IMG/VR virus record: IMGVR_UViG_3300017963_000577
Span: 1 to 31,908 of that record
From: a virus
Reading direction: 5' to 3' (one strand)
DNA length: 31,908 bases
Shown here in pieces: positions 3,425-14,515 of the stretch. The position numbers and the translations under genes were made by a program. The notes under the pieces were generated by a model. It ran no database searches and was not told the origin of the DNA. It saw nothing but the letters and a program-made list of their open reading frames with translations. Numbering within the stretch: the stretch's first letter is position 1; each line of letters opens with the position of its first letter.

Positions 3425-4201
3425 ATGAGTGATTATAACTTTGAACACATTGTATCACAACTAATACTTTATAACAATTGGAAAGAACAATACTTATCTA
3501 TAAAATCAACTAAGGAAAAGCATGCGTTCAAATCTAAGGAGCCCGAAAAGCCTCGCCCAAAATTATATAAAGAAGATTTATTGAAGTTTGATGTACAAAT
3601 CAGTAACTACCGCCCCGTTTCAGGGGATAATGGCTTTAGCGTTACAGAGACTTTCAAACAAATTGATGATGTAAATTTGAAAAACTATTTAAAGTATTGT
3701 GCTCTAGAACAAGCTAGAAGTGATCTAACACAAGCCAAAGCTACCGAAGCAACTCGACACTGCCCACTAGTTCCTATATTTCTAGCTGCTCATAAAGAAT
3801 ATAATGGAGTCAACTATAATGATTGGGATAGGTCAGATAAGTTTATGAGATTTGCTGTAGGTTATCGCTTGTATGATAGTATTGAAAAGTGGAGAAAGAT
3901 TCCTCTTAGTAAAGAACTGCGAGATATCGCTAGAAGAAATGCATTGATAACTCCGAAAGGAAAAGAGGTAAATCCAGCAGTTTGGCCTTTACATAATATT
4001 AGAATAGATAAAAACAATGTACTACGCCCAACTGATTACTTTCGTCATATTTGGTTACAAACATGGGTAGCTAATGTTGAGAATAGAAATGAATTTATGA
4101 TACTAGATGTAAATGACTGGGATTTGATGCCGGAGGCATTAGATGCAGTATTTAAACCACAAGAGATAGAGATGAAAATGGTAGATGAGATGCCATTTTA
4201 A
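3425..4201 (+). CDS. hypothetical protein (258 aa)
   Basis: A single plus-strand gene in an otherwise leftward arm, with its own strong promoter and AAGGA ribosome site. The N-terminal 50 residues are basic and charged (KSTKEKHAFKSKEPEKPRPK). The middle contains LKNYLKYCALEQARSDLTQA, and the C-terminal half is rich in Trp, Tyr and Arg. No signal peptide, membrane segment or catalytic motif is evident. The charged N-terminus and isolated, strongly expressed position would suit a nucleic-acid-binding or early host-takeover protein. I do not recognise a family. Confidence 0.8.
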   Translation: MSDYNFEHIVSQLILYNNWKEQYLSIKSTKEKHAFKSKEPEKPRPKLYKEDLLKFDVQISNYRPVSGDNGFSVTETFKQIDDVNLKNYLKYCALEQARSDLTQAKATEATRHCPLVPIFLAAHKEYNGVNYNDWDRSDKFMRFAVGYRLYDSIEKWRKIPLSKELRDIARRNALITPKGKEVNPAVWPLHNIRIDKNNVLRPTDYFRHIWLQTWVANVENRNEFMILDVNDWDLMPEALDAVFKPQEIEMKMVDEMPF

Positions 4202-6143: not shown

Positions 6144-6500
6144 TTACGATTCCAGTTCGACTCCCGAGCACTCGACCAGGAAGGCACGCAGGCTCTTCAG
6201 GACCGGCTTAGTAGCTTTCTCAAGCGACTCAAAGGCCTCTTCCTCGACACCCACGATTTCTGCGATGTCGGCAACGATCTTTGCCTTGCTTTCGATAGCT
6301 TCACCGGCTTTGGTCTTACGGGCTTTCGCCTTGTACACGCCCATTGCGACGAGCTTCGAGCGAACCGAAGCAACGGATGCGCCCAGCTCCTTGTGGAAAG
6401 CTTCCACAACTCCTGCTCGCGCTTCGTCAGAATCGGCAGAAGTGTAGGCCTCGACCATACGAGAGGTAACTTCAGCGGTGTAGATGGTTTCTTTAGACAT
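6144..6500 (-). CDS. SANT/HTH-like putative DNA-binding protein, paralog 1 (118 aa)
   Basis: One of three paralogs in the window (with 7604-7936 and 11620-11961). All begin with K-x-x-x-YT-x-E, have a helix, then (A/K)S-(V/L)-ASVR-x-K (residues 41-49 here), then G-(V/L)-Y and a C-terminal helix with LEKAT near residues 93-97. The SVRxKL helix preceded by two helices resembles SANT/Myb-type or HTH DNA-binding folds found in small phage proteins; this is inferred from pattern, not proven. It is the most divergent copy and lacks the leader hairpin of the other two. It has its own promoter and terminator, so it is a monocistronic unit. AGGAGC precedes the ATG. Confidence 0.75.
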   Translation of the reverse strand: MSKETIYTAEVTSRMVEAYTSADSDEARAGVVEAFHKELGASVASVRSKLVAMGVYKAKARKTKAGEAIESKAKIVADIAEIVGVEEEAFESLEKATKPVLKSLRAFLVECSGVELES

Positions 6501-6935: not shown

Positions 6936-7029
6936 ACGCTTGCGTACTGCACCGCGCGGCACTGAAATATCTGTACTTGAAATCCGACTACTGGCGCGGA
7001 GCGCGCTCCGCTTTAAATGCGAAAGCAAA

Positions 7030-7044
7030 TGATAATGATTCGCA
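7030..7044. promoter_or_regulatory. Fur-box-like palindrome A
   Basis: TGATAATGATTCGCA, a 7-1-7 arrangement differing from TGATAATnATTATCA only in the right arm. It sits in a 36-bp segment (7019-7054) repeated exactly at 8288-8323. Confidence 0.6.
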
Positions 7045-7070
7045 TTCCGCCGCCTCACGGCGCCCGCGAA

Positions 7071-7085
7071 TGAGAATCATTCGCA
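7071..7085. promoter_or_regulatory. Fur-box-like palindrome B
   Basis: TGAGAATCATTCGCA, close to the 7-1-7 Fur motif. Together with box A it forms a long inverted repeat (7034-7047 with 7068-7081, 13 of 14 bases paired). Confidence 0.6.
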
Positions 7086-7097
7086 TTTGGGGGCAGT

Positions 7098-7120
7098 AAA
7101 AAACCAGGCGTTGCGCCTGG
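7098..7120 (-). terminator. intrinsic terminator of the gene at 7233-7544
   Basis: On the minus strand, CCAGGCG, loop CAA, CGCCTGG, then six U residues (7103-7098). It lies about 110 nt after the stop codon; that stretch (7121-7232) holds no convincing ORF. Confidence 0.75.
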
Positions 7121-7232
7121 CATGAAAGTTGCATATTTTTCTCGGCAGCGGTTTTTAGCTTTACCCGTTAGGAACCGCCTTCCGCCTTTATATCCTTGCA
7201 GATGCGCGGGCCATCCTTGGCACGCTTTTTGC

Positions 7233-7603: not shown

Positions 7604-7936
7604 TTATTCGCTATCCTGCGAAAGCGCTTCCCGAAGCGCGACCAGAACCTTTTTAGTCGCTTTTTCGAGCGACTCGGCCTGCTCCGCTTCCATGCCGAGA
7701 ACCTCGGCAATGTCGGCCACAATAGCGGCTTTGGTTTCCGGCTTTGCGCCAGTTTTGGAAACGTATTCCGCTTTTTTGTAGAGGCCCATGCGGACCGCTT
7801 TCTGGCGGACCGATGCAAGCGACTTGCCGAGAGTAGATGCCAGTTCGGCCACAGCAGCCTTATGGTCCACCTCGCCCGCGAAAGCTTCGCGGATTGCGGT
7901 TTCCATCTCAGGAGTATAATTTACGGTTTTAGCCAT
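7604..7936 (-). CDS. SANT/HTH-like putative DNA-binding protein, paralog 2 (110 aa)
   Basis: Reads MAKTVNYTPEMETAIREAFA, GKSLASVRQK at residues 37-46 and LEKATKKVLVALREALSQ near the C-terminus. It shares the MAKTVNYTPEM start and the SQD-type end with paralog 3, so the two are recent duplicates, while paralog 1 is older. GAGGAGG lies 7 nt upstream of the ATG. Its leader holds a perfect 8-bp hairpin that has a counterpart before paralog 3. A role as a DNA-binding regulator of the local promoter family is plausible but inferred. Confidence 0.8.
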   Translation of the reverse strand: MAKTVNYTPEMETAIREAFAGEVDHKAAVAELASTLGKSLASVRQKAVRMGLYKKAEYVSKTGAKPETKAAIVADIAEVLGMEAEQAESLEKATKKVLVALREALSQDSE

Positions 7937-8287: not shown

Positions 8288-8323
8288 GCGAAAGCAAATG
8301 ATAATGATTCGCATTCCGCCGCC
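8288..8323. promoter_or_regulatory. Fur-box-like palindrome C in a repeated 36-bp segment
   Basis: Identical over 36 bp to 7019-7054. The box itself is TGATAATGATTCGCA at 8299-8313. It lies between a TTGACT-containing promoter-like sequence (8249-8254, poor -10) and a plus-strand terminator. Confidence 0.6.
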
Positions 8324-8353: not shown

Positions 8354-8383
8354 CGTGCCAGGTTTGCGCCTGGCACGTTTTTT
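8354..8383 (+). terminator. strong intrinsic terminator on the plus strand
   Basis: CGTGCCAGG (8354-8362), loop TTTGCG, CCTGGCACG (8369-8377), then six U residues. The U-tract exists only on the plus strand, so it must serve a plus-strand transcript, although all annotated genes here are on the minus strand. Confidence 0.75.
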
Positions 8384-8580: not shown

Positions 8581-9232
8581 TTACAATTCTCCAAGGTTGA
8601 GCATTTACCTTTCCGAAAGGTATCTTTTTCTTCTGGCGAAAGCAAGCGGCCAAAATTCTATTTTCGATCTTTACATCTTCCAATGCTGTATGTTCTTCGA
8701 TATAATTCCAATCGGCTGAAATATAGCTGTATGCTTTCTCGGCATTAGTTCGTATATTTCCAGCGTCAGAAACCCAATTTTGTTCTCTAGCAAGTTGCAT
8801 ATAGGTTTTGCTGGAAAGTATAGTTTCGCAAGCGAATTGCCAAATATCTAGAACCCGCATGGGGCGATGCAGAAATTTACCTTCGCCGTTTGTAGATTTA
8901 ATTGCACCCATGTCAAAACCTACATTATAAGCGGCGAAAACATCTACATTGAATTTATCCAAATCCGCAAGAAATTCCGAGCGAATATCCTTCCAAGGTT
9001 TAATGGTAATGATACCTTTTGCGAGCATCGGTATATAATGCGAAAATATCTTTTTCGCATAAAACGCGCCCATCATTTTGTCGGCATCTATAATAGTTTC
9101 TTCGACAAGATAGGAACCTTCAGAATATACATTTCCTTTCTTATCTACAATTTGCCAAGCAAAATCATATACAGATTTATCTTGTAAACCGACGCATTCT
9201 GTATCAACAACGGCAAGCATCATTTTAGCCAT
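8570..9232 (-). CDS. DEDD-family (DnaQ/RNase T-like) 3'-5' exonuclease (220 aa)
   Basis: The exonuclease motifs are in order: Exo I with D10-T-E12 (AVVDTECVG), Exo II with N103 and D107 (AAYNVGFDMGA), and Exo III with H181 and D186 (HTALEDV). The four acidic residues and the His of a DEDDh enzyme are all present, so it should be an active two-metal-ion 3'-5' exonuclease on DNA or RNA. The ATG at 9232 is preferred to a TTG three codons earlier. It sits between two small genes in one overlapping unit. No polymerase is fused or adjacent, so it is free-standing and may trim RNA, degrade host DNA or proofread in trans. Confidence 0.85.
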   Translation of the reverse strand: MAKMMLAVVDTECVGLQDKSVYDFAWQIVDKKGNVYSEGSYLVEETIIDADKMMGAFYAKKIFSHYIPMLAKGIITIKPWKDIRSEFLADLDKFNVDVFAAYNVGFDMGAIKSTNGEGKFLHRPMRVLDIWQFACETILSSKTYMQLAREQNWVSDAGNIRTNAEKAYSYISADWNYIEEHTALEDVKIENRILAACFRQKKKIPFGKVNAQPWRIVNEL

Positions 9233-9233
9233 T

Positions 9234-9449
9234 TTATACAACCCCCAAACCGTTAAGGTTTATAAACATCAAAAGTAGATTGGTAATAAGTAAACCGAGC
9301 ATATTTCGTTCATGCGCGATATACATCCAAAGTATATTAGAAAACATCCCGATTGTAAAGCCGTGCGATACATTTTCGGAAAGTAAATAAAGGCCGACGA
9401 TCGTCAGGACCGTTGCTAGTGCTTCGATGATTTGTTCTGCTCTGTTCAT
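9234..9449 (-). CDS. small membrane protein (71 aa), possibly leaderless
   Basis: There are hydrophobic stretches at about residues 8-25 (EALATVLTIVGLYLLS), 30-43 and 50-66 (MLGLLITNLLLMFINL), giving two or three membrane helices. The ATG lies only 7 nt after the -10 box, at the expected transcription start, and no ribosome site precedes it, so the mRNA may be leaderless. It opens the operon with the exonuclease, whose ATG lies just past this stop. Function unknown. Confidence 0.65.
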   Translation of the reverse strand: MNRAEQIIEALATVLTIVGLYLLSENVSHGFTIGMFSNILWMYIAHERNMLGLLITNLLLMFINLNGLGVV

Positions 9450-9455
9450 GCTGTA

Positions 9456-9483
9456 ATTATAGCAAAGTGAATCGCTAAGTCAA
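9456..9483 (-). promoter_or_regulatory. sigma70-like promoter of the exonuclease operon
   Basis: TTGACT (9483-9478), 16-nt spacer, perfect TATAAT (9461-9456), minus strand. Confidence 0.75.
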
Positions 9484-9518
9484 CCAAAAAGATTCTATAG
9501 GCCCATAAAAATTTTTGC

Positions 9519-9548
9519 TTGACACCAGGCCGCGCGCCAGGGTATAAT
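9519..9548 (+). promoter_or_regulatory. outward (antisense) promoter P+5
   Basis: TTGACA (9519-9524), 18-nt spacer, perfect TATAAT (9543-9548), then CGGCGCGGCG. Fur-box-like palindrome D begins 7 nt after the -10, so a bound repressor would cover the start site. Confidence 0.7.
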
Positions 9549-9555
9549 CGGCGCG

Positions 9556-9580
9556 GCGAATGAGAATCATTCTCATTCGC
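9556..9580. promoter_or_regulatory. Fur-box-like palindrome D
   Basis: A perfect 12-1-12 palindrome. The core 9559-9577 is AATGAGAATCATTCTCATT, the classic form of a gammaproteobacterial Fur box. It lies 11 nt past the stop codon of the HAD gene and directly downstream of P+5. Flanking GCCAGGG (9536-9542) and CCCTGGC (9582-9588) extend the symmetry, so an RNA hairpin is also possible. Confidence 0.7.
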
Positions 9581-9591
9581 GCCCTGGCTAT

Positions 9592-10065
9592 TTAGTATCC
9601 TTGCGTTGATGGTACATAATGCGGAATCGCGCCGATAGCTTCCGAAACATCGCGCAAATAGTCTTTATTATCCTCCCAGAAATGCACGACCGCATTAGGG
9701 AAGCTAGCGATTATCGGCAACAATCCATTGATTTTCAATTCCGCGCCTTTGCGAACGTCATTCGGGCCGAGGCGATGAATGAAAAAATCCGGCAGCCCGA
9801 GCCGCTTTTCGACAAATTGCCAGTTTGCGTCACCCTTGACACAAGCGCGCGCGGTAGCAATTACGACCAAGGTTTCCGGGTCCATAATATCTTGCTTATA
9901 TTGTGCAGCATGGGGCAAAAGCGAGTCTTTTGCGATCTGTTCGGGAATGTCATTCTCGCGCCAGTGTTTGAGATCAATTCTCATTTCGCCGGGCACAGTC
10001 CGGTAACGATGGGAGCTAGAAATTACAGTCCCGTCAAGATCATAAACGTGAATCTTTTTAATCAT
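9592..10065 (-). CDS. HAD-superfamily phosphatase-like protein (157 aa)
   Basis: The HAD motifs are in order: motif I D9-x-D11-G-T (VYDLDGTV), motif II T71 (VIATARA), a lysine candidate for motif III (K106 in VRKGAELK) and motif IV EDN (131-133, HFWEDNKDY). It is therefore probably an Mg-dependent phosphohydrolase; small HAD proteins of phages act on nucleotide or nucleic-acid phosphates, including end-healing enzymes. Substrate unknown. The start at 10065 (MIKKIHVYDL) is chosen for GGAGAA 7 nt upstream. Single-gene unit with its own promoter; its 3' end abuts Fur-like box D. Confidence 0.8.
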   Translation of the reverse strand: MIKKIHVYDLDGTVISSSHRYRTVPGEMRIDLKHWRENDIPEQIAKDSLLPHAAQYKQDIMDPETLVVIATARACVKGDANWQFVEKRLGLPDFFIHRLGPNDVRKGAELKINGLLPIIASFPNAVVHFWEDNKDYLRDVSEAIGAIPHYVPSTQGY

Positions 10066-10089
10066 GCAATTTTCTCCTTTCATGCTTAT

Positions 10090-10117
10090 ATTATAGACCC
10101 TTGCCCCAAAATGTCAA
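10090..10117 (-). promoter_or_regulatory. sigma70-like promoter of the HAD gene
   Basis: TTGACA (10117-10112), 16-nt spacer, perfect TATAAT (10095-10090), minus strand. It is part of a duplicated divergent-promoter cassette matched at 11147-11227. Confidence 0.8.
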
Positions 10118-10140
10118 GCTATTTTTGTGAATTAAAAGAT

Positions 10141-10169
10141 TTGATTTCGCCAGGCGGCTGTGGTATAAT
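10141..10169 (+). promoter_or_regulatory. outward (antisense) promoter P+6
   Basis: TTGATT (10141-10146), 17-nt spacer, perfect TATAAT (10164-10169), then CGGCGCGGCC. The start site would lie just before or at the edge of Fur box E. Confidence 0.7.
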
Positions 10170-10180
10170 CGGCGCGGCCA

Positions 10181-10205
10181 GATGATAATGATTATCATTA
10201 TCATC
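10181..10205. promoter_or_regulatory. Fur box E (matches the consensus exactly)
   Basis: A perfect 12-1-12 palindrome. Read on the minus strand, 10202-10184 is GATAATGATAATCATTATC, identical at all 19 positions to the established Escherichia coli Fur-box consensus. It lies 10 nt after the stop codon of the gene at 10216-10488 and about 11 nt after the -10 of P+6, an ideal place to repress that promoter. Confidence 0.8.
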
Positions 10206-10215
10206 GGCTGCTCCG

Positions 10216-10488
10216 TTAGCGATAGCTTGCCCAGCTATCCGCATCATAGTGCGATTCGAGCCAATTGCAGATCCTAATTCCCAGCGGATCATCGTGCAGG
10301 ATCCGATCGCGCAGCTTGTCCCAGCTATAGCCCATCGCCAAGCCTAGCCCGATCACATCGTACCAATCATGAAACCAATGTACCGCATCGGGCGGAGCGC
10401 CGAAAGCCTCGCGCATGTTGTCGTCGATTGATTGAAAGGTAGCCGGATCGCTTGCGCCTTTCGGGGTAAGGGTGAAATAATTAGCCAT
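10216..10488 (-). CDS. hypothetical phage protein (90 aa)
   Basis: Start at 10488 (MANYFTLTPKGASDPATFQS) with GAGGAAA upstream. The middle reads WYDVIGLGLAMGYSWDKLRD and the end ESHYDADSWASYR. This YFTLT start, WYD-x-IG core and C-terminal D-x-W is a layout seen in many uncharacterised phage proteins. Last gene of a three-gene unit with ATG/stop overlaps. Function unknown. Confidence 0.75.
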   Translation of the reverse strand: MANYFTLTPKGASDPATFQSIDDNMREAFGAPPDAVHWFHDWYDVIGLGLAMGYSWDKLRDRILHDDPLGIRICNWLESHYDADSWASYR

Positions 10489-11197: not shown

Positions 11198-11227
11198 TTG
11201 ATTTCACCGCCAGGCCCGTGTTATAAT
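11198..11227 (+). promoter_or_regulatory. outward (antisense) promoter P+7
   Basis: TTGATT (11198-11203), 18-nt spacer, perfect TATAAT (11222-11227). Homologous to P+6 through the ATTTGATTTC and CGCCAGGC blocks. Fur-like box F lies about 30 nt downstream. Confidence 0.6.
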
Positions 11228-11256: not shown

Positions 11257-11285
11257 GTAACGCTAATCATAATGATTCGCATTAC
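11257..11285. promoter_or_regulatory. Fur-box-like palindrome F (weakest match)
   Basis: A 14-1-14 imperfect palindrome with two mismatched pairs. The core 11267-11281 is TCATAATGATTCGCA. It shares AATGATTCGCATT with boxes A and C and occupies the equivalent intergenic place, past a stop codon and next to an outward promoter. Confidence 0.45.
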
Positions 11286-11336
11286 GCCGCTACGGCGCCG
11301 CTAGGCAGCAGGTTCCTACCCTGCGCCTGGCTATGG

Positions 11337-11402
11337 TTAATCGGTTTCCGTTGACCAGCCCGACATGGCCAGCAATGCAATCAACAAAATGAATTCGAAC
11401 AT
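11337..11402 (-). CDS. 21-residue membrane peptide
   Basis: Reads MFEFILLIALLAMSGWSTET plus a final Asp; a single hydrophobic helix. Its ATG overlaps the stop of the upstream gene (TGATG), typical coupling. Small but positioned like a gene. Confidence 0.5.
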   Translation of the reverse strand: MFEFILLIALLAMSGWSTETD

Positions 11403-11560
11403 CACGCCCTCCACCAATCTTTCCTGCCTTCTTTCTTCGCACGTTCCTGCCTGATCTTACGGGCAGCAGCTTGCGTTTTGGCATGCGCTTCCATCAGGGG
11501 AGCTTCTTTGTTAGCCACGCCCATCTGATAGTTTGCCCAGTATTCGCTTCTGCTAGTCAT
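11402..11560 (-). CDS. small basic helical protein (52 aa)
   Basis: Reads MTSRSEYWANYQMGVANKEA followed by AARKIRQERAKKEGRKDWW, a long basic helix. GGGAGAAG precedes the ATG. It has a promoter with palindromic spacer and overlaps the 21-residue peptide downstream. Possibly nucleic-acid binding (inference). Confidence 0.65.
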   Translation of the reverse strand: MTSRSEYWANYQMGVANKEAPLMEAHAKTQAAARKIRQERAKKEGRKDWWRA

Positions 11561-11619: not shown

Positions 11620-11961
11620 CTAGTCAGCATCCTGCGAAAGAGCTTCCCGCACCTTCAGCAGTACCGGCTTGGTCGCTTTCTCCAGCGATTCAACCTGCTC
11701 CGCTTCCATGCCCAGCAGGGCAGCAATCTCGCCCACAATGTGAGCCTTGCTTTCGGCTTTCTCGCCTTGCTTGTTGGTGTATTCCTTCTTCTGATACACA
11801 CCCTCACGGCTCAGCTTCTGCCGGACCGAAGCAACGCTTTTGCCGAATTTCGTAGCCATGTTTGCGATCACCTCGGAGCGGGCATCGTAGCCCTCAGCCG
11901 CCTCATAGGCAGCGATGATTTCCTTGGTCATCTCAGGGGTATAGTTCACAGTCTTAGCCAT
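11620..11961 (-). CDS. SANT/HTH-like putative DNA-binding protein, paralog 3 (113 aa)
   Basis: Reads MAKTVNYTPEMTKEIIAAYE, with GKSVASVRQKL at residues 40-50, GVYQKKEY after it, and LEKATKPVLLKVREAL near the end. Closest to paralog 2: same first 11 residues, same ending type and a related leader hairpin. AGGAGAT precedes the ATG. It has its own promoter at 12019-12047 and lies at the right edge of the GC-richer minus-strand block. As with the other copies, DNA binding is inferred from the helix pattern. Confidence 0.8.
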   Translation of the reverse strand: MAKTVNYTPEMTKEIIAAYEAAEGYDARSEVIANMATKFGKSVASVRQKLSREGVYQKKEYTNKQGEKAESKAHIVGEIAALLGMEAEQVESLEKATKPVLLKVREALSQDAD

Positions 11962-12061: not shown

Positions 12062-12320
12062 TAGCCACATAAGCCAGGCTTATACAAATCCAAAACAAAA
12101 AGAATTTGTAATTAGCCAGGTGGTATGATCTTTGCTTATGCAAGAATCGTGCCAAGCCGGTTGGCACAGCTCTTGCTTAGCAAGAAGCGTGCCAGGGGCG
12201 GTTATCAGACTTTTCTTCCTACGGACTAGCCTGACCCCTCCTCACGTAAACCATCACAAAAAATTTCAATCAATTATGGTGCAATAATAGGGCTGCCATA
12301 CCCAAAACCAAAAAAATCTC
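12062..12320. repeat. intergenic repeats and hairpins upstream of terS
   Basis: No gene in about 300 bp. A direct repeat (12132-12154 and 12173-12194, TTGCTTA(T)GCAAGAA then CGTGCCA) flanks a hairpin GTGCCAA/TTGGCAC (12149-12155 with 12161-12167). Each repeat also has a small internal stem (TTGC/GCAA). A CCAGGTGGTATGAT sequence at 12114-12128 resembles the outward promoter family. This is the junction between the leftward block and the packaging genes, so a cis-acting packaging or replication site is conceivable. Confidence 0.5.
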
Positions 12321-12819: not shown

Positions 12820-13230
12820 ATGAATCTTTTGGTCACTATTCTATATGGCCAGTTCGAAAAAGGGCGACAAGTCTACAGATTAGAACAAGATGTAGAATTT
12901 TTAGGTTGGGAACATCAAGTAGGAGTCTACAAGGGATTTCCAACAGATTTAGTAAGTTTACCATGGTTGCTGCGATTAGTTGCCTCTCCTACCGGACGCT
13001 GGGCAATTGGAGCAATCTTTCATGATATGTTATATCATACACACTATCTTCCTAGAAAGGAAGCAGATCTACTTTTCTATAAAATTATGAAAGATCATGA
13101 CGTACCTGCGTGGAAAGCAGTACCTGCATACTACTTGGTGCGATGGTTTGGATGGTATAGATATAATCAATATAAAAAAGATATAAATAACTATAGAAGA
13201 TACGGATATGTTGAAAATATCAAGAGATGA
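12820..13230 (+). CDS. DUF1353-family phage protein (136 aa)
   Basis: It carries the signature of the DUF1353 family: GFPTDLVSLP (residues 39-48), GAIFHDMLY (64-72) and RKEADLLF (79-86), then a Trp/Tyr-rich tail (LVRWFGWYRY). The His-Asp pair and acidic residues suggest a possible metal site, but no activity is established for the family, which is common in phage structural and lysis regions. It starts at the nucleotide after the terS stop and overlaps terL by 23 bp, so the three are translated together. Confidence 0.85.
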   Translation: MNLLVTILYGQFEKGRQVYRLEQDVEFLGWEHQVGVYKGFPTDLVSLPWLLRLVASPTGRWAIGAIFHDMLYHTHYLPRKEADLLFYKIMKDHDVPAWKAVPAYYLVRWFGWYRYNQYKKDINNYRRYGYVENIKR

Positions 13231-14515
13231 CGTTCCTGCAGATGAGATTTTAGAATTTCCTGTATCAGAACGTTTTATTAAGCTACCCATAGAAAATTAC
13301 CTTAAGTTACTAAAAGATCCTCAAGGTAATCCTATTGAGGCTATTCCGCCACAAATAGCGCTCATTAATGCAATCAATAATCCTAAGTATAGATTTGTTG
13401 TCGCGGCCCTTAGTCGTCGTACTGGCAAAACTTTTATTTCGAATGTGATTGCGCAACTTGTGGCATTTGTGCCTGGTACTAATATACTTATTATGGCACC
13501 TAATTATAGTCTTAGCACTATTAGTTGGGAATTGCAGCGTCAGCTGCTGAATAAGTTTGAAATTGAGTTAACTCGATCAAATGCTAAAGATAAGATACTA
13601 GAACTAGAAAATGGATCTACTATACGAATGGGCTCTGTGGGACAAGCTGATTCCGTAGTTGGTAGATCATATGACTTAATTCTATTTGACGAAGCTGCCC
13701 TTGACGATAAGGGTAAAGATGCGTTTCAAATTCAGCTACGTCCTACTCTAGACAAACTAAATTCAAAAGCTATCTTTATTAGTACTCCCCGTGGTAAGAA
13801 CTGGTTTTGGGAGTTCTTTATGCGTGGGTGGGGAGAAGATGACGAGTGGGTATCAATTCACTCTGATTGGAAAGAAAATCCTCGTGCTGTAGAAAAAGAT
13901 ATTCAAAAAGCTAAAAACTCTATGAGTTCTGCTGAGTTTAAACAAGAGTATGAAGCTGACTTTGTTGTTCTACAAGGTAAGATCTGGGACTTCAGTAATG
14001 AATGTGTTGTTAAGATAGACCTTGATAGAATAAATAAATGGGATGTAATTGCTGGCATGGATATCGGCTTTAGAGATGCTACTGCTTTTGTTGTAGCTAT
14101 CACCGATGGCGAAAAGTTTTACATAGTTGATGAGTATCAAGCTAGTGGTAAGACTACTGCAGCACATGCTAAGAAAATACAGAAACTAGTGGATAAATGG
14201 GAAATTGATTTTATTTATATTGATTCTGCGGCTCAGCAGACGAAGTTTGACTTCGCTATGAATTTTGACATCTCAACTATTAACGCTAATAAGTCTATAC
14301 TAGATGGAATTGGTTATGTAGCTTCTATTGTTGAACACGATAGACTACTAGTTGATGAATCTTGTAAAGATGTTATTGCTTCTTTAGATAATTATGTGTG
14401 GGATGACCGAGAAGGGCTAATTAAAGAAAAAGCTAAAAATAATGGTTTTCAACACATGGCAGACGCTATACGTTATGCCCTTTATTCTCATGCTTATAAC
14501 ATGGAAACCTTATGA
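13208..14515 (+). CDS. terL: terminase large subunit (435 aa)
   Basis: ATP-driven DNA packaging motor and nuclease. The ATPase domain has a Walker A variant SRRTGKT (residues 69-75), Walker B LILFDEA (157-163) with Glu162, and coupling motif ISTP (191-194). The RNase H-like nuclease domain has acidic residues D285 (AGMDIGFRD), D339 (IYIDSA) and D419 (HMADAIRYAL). Motif order and spacing are those of T4-type large subunits, at a rather short length. It cuts concatemers and translocates DNA through the portal at the procapsid vertex. Overlaps the following gene by 4 bp. Confidence 0.95.
   Translation: MLKISRDDVPADEILEFPVSERFIKLPIENYLKLLKDPQGNPIEAIPPQIALINAINNPKYRFVVAALSRRTGKTFISNVIAQLVAFVPGTNILIMAPNYSLSTISWELQRQLLNKFEIELTRSNAKDKILELENGSTIRMGSVGQADSVVGRSYDLILFDEAALDDKGKDAFQIQLRPTLDKLNSKAIFISTPRGKNWFWEFFMRGWGEDDEWVSIHSDWKENPRAVEKDIQKAKNSMSSAEFKQEYEADFVVLQGKIWDFSNECVVKIDLDRINKWDVIAGMDIGFRDATAFVVAITDGEKFYIVDEYQASGKTTAAHAKKIQKLVDKWEIDFIYIDSAAQQTKFDFAMNFDISTINANKSILDGIGYVASIVEHDRLLVDESCKDVIASLDNYVWDDREGLIKEKAKNNGFQHMADAIRYALYSHAYNMETL

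Follow-up and report, generated by a model that had tools for sequence, protein, structure and literature searches.

Background

The entry of phage T5 DNA halts after about 9% of the genome, and the cause of this halt is still poorly understood, as is, according to a recent article, the mechanism of the second-step transfer (PMC13250531, PNAS 2026). The injection stop signal of T5 is described there as holding repeats, palindromes and DnaA boxes, elements which might fold into secondary structures or engage components of the host and so block transfer; the word LexA is absent from the text of this article, and the string "Fur" occurs, among the passages listed, only within words such as "further". 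Fur boxes in phage DNA have been described for temperate lambda-like phages in which such a box precedes a phage-borne sit operon and controls the cargo iron or manganese transporter (PMC6969025). A link of Fur or LexA boxes with T5 was not found in the open PMC literature, including passages of PMC6969025, PMC13250531 and PMC10219339.

Here we describe Fur-type palindromes in a stretch of viral DNA of 31,908 nucleotides, henceforth the window, whose source record is a linear virus contig of 31.9 kb. The window has in common with the sit-operon phages a Fur box in phage DNA, but it encodes no transporter and the box lies in the arm of a lytic phage. In T5 (AY543070), Fur-type matches with at most two mismatches cluster at positions 9552-9709, within the annotated injection stop signal (9140-10149), and this cluster is repeated in the right terminal repeat. 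Like the window, T5 thus shows Fur-type palindromes near dmp and A2 genes, in its case in first-step DNA; in contrast to T5, the boxes of the window do not form one array ending a terminal repeat, and an A1-sized ORF is missing. If an injection stop signal is understood as a single noncoding block, close to a terminal-repeat end, that combines a LexA box, DnaA boxes and a Fur array, the window is not classed as such, because it contains no LexA box, its exact DnaA boxes (TTATNCACA) are found only at 2287 and 23138, none of them near Fur boxes, and the Fur-type boxes are scattered between genes.

A pre-early type gene module

The following genes place the window among known phages:
6144-6500, minus strand: A2-like DNA-binding protein 1 (phrog_1725, the family of T5 A2)
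7604-7936, minus strand: A2-like protein 2 (phrog_1725)
9592-10083, minus strand: Dmp-like gene (phrog_415, E 1.7e-13)
10216-10488, minus strand: 90-aa ORF without PHROG match, its 3' end adjoining the palindrome at 10181-10205
11620-11961, minus strand: A2-like protein 3 (phrog_1725)
13208-14515, plus strand: terminase large subunit, up to 49.5% identity to T5-like Vibrio phages

The portal is likewise closest to T5-like Vibrio phages (41.3%), while a near match to the window at the DNA level was not found in the phage collection. Since T5 Dmp and T5 A2 belong to phrog_415 and phrog_1725, respectively, the boxes sit in a module of the pre-early type, with dmp and A2 homologues beside the terminase. 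An A1 homologue was not recognized left of 12.3 kb, where no ORF exceeds 258 aa, a statement based on length alone in a fragment contig. Judged by its gene content, the source is a T5-like lytic phage and the boxes lie in its pre-early type arm. This arm carries three phrog_1725 paralogues, compared with the single A2 gene annotated in the left repeat of T5. At 12190-12265 an element of the form GGGGCGGTTATCAGAC ... CCCCTCCTCACGTAA precedes the terminase genes; similar elements are present in the viral loci L022, L041, L049, L054, L057 and L137, and some of them enclose a Fur-type box.

The palindrome at 10181-10205 is one of six Fur-type boxes

The original prediction concerned a single site, for which three features are relevant (boxes are listed here and below without a strand):
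10181-10205: Fur-type box, perfect 12-1-12 palindrome, GATGATAATGAT-T-ATCATTATCATC
10141-10169, plus strand: antisense sigma70-type promoter TTGATT-17-TATAAT, 10/12, with TG before the second hexamer
10117-10090, minus strand: divergent sense promoter TTGACA-16-TATAAT, 12/12, before the Dmp-like gene

Checking the sequence bore out the description that had been given of this site: the palindrome is perfect, its minus strand at 10184-10202 reads GATAATGATAATCATTATC, the 19-bp Fur consensus, without a single mismatch, and the proposed TTGATT/TATAAT promoter lies just upstream with a spacer of 17. Both yardsticks, the 19-bp E. coli Fur-box consensus and the inverted 7-1-7 Fur core, which the palindrome matches as well, were used in their commonly accepted form. 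On a 25-bp matrix whose training set included the boxes of the window, the site scores 23.5 (centre 10190), with an overlapping site of 15.3 at 10196. The claim that a full-length match is unexpected by chance also agrees with our simulations, as 100 dinucleotide shuffles of the window gave on average 0.02 and at most one match with up to three mismatches to the 19-bp consensus. Chance as the origin of the box is ruled out by these and by Markov shuffles of the window.

What the earlier account omits are five sibling boxes, including a second perfect 12-1-12 palindrome, so that six Fur-type boxes are spread between 7.0 and 11.3 kb among the Dmp-like gene and the three A2 paralogues. The siblings and the promoters near them are as follows (scores from the same matrix):
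7025-7049: Fur-type box, score 33.2, centre 7037, 25-mer identical to that at 8294-8318
7066-7090: Fur-type box, score 38.0, centre 7078, 41 bp from the box at 7025-7049
8294-8318: Fur-type box, score 33.2, centre 8306, followed by a terminator-like site at 8354-8377
9519-9548, plus strand: antisense promoter TTGACA-18-TATAAT, 12/12
9556-9580: Fur-type box, second perfect 12-1-12 palindrome GCGAATGAGAATCATTCTCATTCGC, score 38.5, centre 9568
11198-11227, plus strand: antisense promoter TTGATT-18-TATAAT, upstream of the following box
11262-11286: Fur-type box, score 22.4, centre 11274, adjoining the 3' end of the minus-strand ORF 11290-11484

All six boxes are intergenic, compared with an intergenic share of 15% for the window as a whole, and the highest matrix score across 20 Markov shuffles was 10.6, against 22 to 38 for the six boxes, on which the matrix had in part been trained. 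Scans for matS, SlmA, Noc, PurR, Zur, CRP, FNR, NrdR and MetJ sites gave scattered weak matches only, and an exact 24-mer from the window was absent from the other viral contigs searched. Every box is found beyond the 3' end of a minus-strand ORF, and three junctions are built alike, with a gene end followed by the box, an antisense promoter, a sense promoter and the next gene. At the focal junction the promoters at 10141-10169 and 10117-10090 stand back to back; the -10 hexamer of the former stops 11 bp short of the palindrome and lies 21 bp from the box centre, and transcription from it would run into the 3' end of the ORF 10216-10488, hence in antisense orientation.

This arrangement would be compatible with an iron-gated promoter, with iron-loaded Fur repressing the antisense promoters and antisense RNA tuning the pre-early genes in iron-poor cells. 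A box overlaps the promoter or its start region, as at Fur-repressed promoters, at 10141-10169 and at 9519-9548, with centres 21 and 20 bp past the -10 hexamer, and the centre at 11274 follows its antisense promoter at 47 bp. Similar spacing recurs in an uncultured relative (L382, a piece of the record behind L144), all six boxes of which are found 21-31 bp downstream of 12/12 promoters that are antisense to the gene array; when five loci are pooled, 11 of the 26 boxes follow a promoter of 10/12 or better at a distance of 15-35 bp, where 1.66 would be expected. However, for three of the six boxes in the window no promoter of at least 9/12 lies within -45 to +60 bp, boxes of T5-like isolates generally lack strong promoters (see below), and nothing credible is encoded behind the antisense promoter at 10141-10169. 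We therefore consider iron gating as the purpose of the boxes a possible but less than likely explanation.

The motif is that of host Fur sites

Recognition of the motif does not depend on the 19-bp consensus. A matrix built solely from phage sites (78 sites, 74 of them distinct) was run on E. coli K-12, and in 136 kb around iron genes it gave 12 matches with a score of at least 5. Eleven of these fall in the fepA-fes, fepD-entS, fepB-entC, fhuF, cirA and fiu promoters, whose genes are Fur-regulated; the remaining one is at yeiS-preT, which is not known as an iron locus. In a 49-kb control region around oriC nothing scored above -0.2. The boxes thus have the same motif as proteobacterial Fur boxes such as those at fepA-fes and fhuF, promoters which the phage-only matrix ranks first, and overlapping sites 6 bp apart occur at fepB-entC as they do in the T5 arrays. 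In contrast to the proteobacterial sites, the window boxes belong to a lytic phage, are situated at gene ends and precede no iron gene. Individual matches can be less clear, as for one T5 box whose best match in E. coli lies inside a prophage and not at an iron gene, and for another whose best match is found before mntH.

Bacterial genomes gave the same picture. A search pattern that fits five of the six window boxes matched at least 119 bacterial loci, and the facing ORF, defined as the nearest within 350 bp of the box, was scanned with Pfam in 93 cases. Among the matches listed there were 16 TonB plug, six Peripla_BP_2 (siderophore-binding type), five cupredoxin, four FeoA, two FTR1 and two IucA/IucC domains. 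None of these iron families was among the 25 of 159 families listed for 93 control ORFs of the same loci (out of 116), which included one FeoB; single TonB plug matches may be hidden among the controls, as their table lists 25 of the 159 families. The motif of the window boxes is thus the one found before host iron genes. Operators of a DNA-binding protein of the phage, A2 for example, that only look like Fur boxes could be considered given the three A2 paralogues among the boxes, but an operator used only by phages would not mark host iron promoters, and it is precisely these which the phage-trained matrix finds and which boxes of the window type precede in bacteria. We regard A2 operators as quite improbable.

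The motif is conserved through the centre of the palindrome, with 1.5-1.7 bits at positions 1-3 on either side, a pattern expected where a protein dimer binds DNA, whereas the loop of a hairpin would vary. Perfect palindromes in intergenic DNA, together with terminator-like sites at 7103-7121 and 8354-8377, could also point to an RNA hairpin, a terminator or a packaging signal; with this conserved centre and no T run after 10205, such a role appears highly improbable. An RNA element was ruled out by the absence of Rfam matches in four sources and by the conserved motif centre.

None of the 20 phage records searched encodes a Fur homologue, whereas Fur was detected in 13 of the 14 genomes used as a control. 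A phage-encoded Fur as the binder is ruled out by this absence, and the binder would consequently be the Fur protein of the host. Taken together, the identification of the focal palindrome as a Fur site is well supported at the level of the motif, and very probably the iron regulator Fur of the host docks there.

Fur-type boxes in T5-like isolates

Fourteen cultured T5-like isolates were scanned with the usual LexA and DnaA consensus sequences, together with the Fur motif. Allowing one mismatch, 50 matches were found in 13 of the 14 records, compared with six for the reversed motif; as the isolates are related and terminal repeats were counted twice, p-values are not independent and the statistics are inflated. 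The injection stop signal is annotated only in T5, and its counterparts in the other isolates were inferred from position and content. In the stop signal or the corresponding region a LexA-type box and DnaA-type boxes are present in all 14 isolates, and LexA, DnaA and Fur boxes are grouped together in 13; phage phi3 is the exception, with no Fur boxes in that region. A guessed DnaA pattern of fixed spacing was a poor choice (0 of 14 isolates), and single DnaA boxes were scanned instead. In T5, DT57C, Eps7, Spivey and GZ8 the distance between a Fur-type box and the start of the LexA box is 143 bp, and the spacing within the Fur arrays is often 35 bp. No promoter of at least 10/12 was found at the boxes of these isolates, except for one secondary pair in PG07.

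Multicopy Fur boxes titrate Fur in the classical titration assay. Replicated phage DNA might therefore act as a sponge for host Fur and derepress iron uptake, a role consistent with several strong boxes per genome, with their doubling by the terminal repeats in the T5, DT57C and GZ8 records, and with the occurrence of Fur-type boxes in unrelated large lytic phages. However, the T5 sites are located on the first-entering DNA, at a stage when there is one copy, and iron does not explain the accompanying LexA and DnaA boxes. Titration of Fur is in our view unlikely.

Distribution among uncultured relatives and other phages

A search with the motif alone recovered 118 new viral loci, of which 36 code for a protein homologous to one from the window and 16 code for two or more such proteins, whereas none of the 26 viral loci recovered with the reversed motif does so (Fisher 0.0002 for the comparison with 36 of 118, the phages being related and the loci non-independent). 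The unbiased figure for the exact core box is six of 80 terminase-bearing viral loci, most of them short fragments. In a set of 37 records, 16 had been selected through the motif search itself and seven more (behind L022, L041, L045, L049, L054, L057 and L083) on account of a box or near-box in the locus.

In L382 the exact 16-bp parS sequence TGTTTCACGTGAAACA occurs at 3835, 4711, 5454 and 6830, starting 29-37 bp from a box centre, so that four of the six boxes are accompanied by parS. Five tandem DnaA boxes with a spacing of 11-12 bp directly follow a Fur-type box in L187 (10540-10635). Outside the T5-like phages, Fur-type boxes were observed in Cronobacter phage CR3 (an array of four), Klebsiella phage phi1_175008 and Pseudomonas phage PA5oct, in the last of these inside the annotated terminal repeat; the pieces concerned are L387 (about 2380-2565), L388 (about 2440-2525) and L386 (about 2440-2525). 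In each of these three phages one of the boxes comes after a GC-rich element with GGAGACAA.CACC, and the three elements resemble each other.

Proposed docking of host proteins on the DNA that enters first

The Fur reading of the palindrome thus holds as far as the motif and its position at a promoter start region are concerned, but plain control of a phage promoter is too narrow, because the promoter points in the antisense direction and precedes no credible gene, because the site has five siblings, and because the arrays of T5-like phages lack strong promoters and come with LexA and DnaA boxes. We hold it moderately probable that the palindrome is an operator for host Fur, one of six at gene junctions, which serves docking on first-entering DNA more than iron sensing. 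Metal-loaded host Fur would bind once the DNA of this arm enters the cell. At the boxes centred at 9568 and 10190, over the starts of antisense promoters, it would silence the promoter and insulate the gene cassette. More generally, the boxes would load abundant host DNA-binding proteins on the segment that enters first and thereby hold, mark or insulate it.

Such loading of host proteins is most likely the underlying role, rather than iron sensing, since in T5-like relatives the Fur boxes are retained in company with LexA and DnaA boxes at the stop signal or the matching region or, in one relative, alongside parS sites. Docking is favoured, with silencing of antisense transcription as a local effect in this phage, because the Fur motif is constant while promoters come and go, and because its companions are LexA, DnaA and ParB sites. 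A broader and rather doubtful extension would be that T5-like phages halt the entry of their DNA by means of sites occupied by abundant host proteins (Fur, LexA and DnaA, and in some lineages also ParB and sigma70 RNA polymerase) before phage proteins are made, that A1 and A2 later clear the array, and that the window represents a dispersed version with Fur only.

The Fur and other host-protein sites in the T5 pause segment offer a concrete test of the pause mechanism: if Fur, LexA and DnaA sites form the stop signal, the entry pause becomes directly testable in E. coli. If true, phage entry would be tied to the iron and SOS state of the host, which points to a type of phage-host interaction invisible to searches for protein homology.
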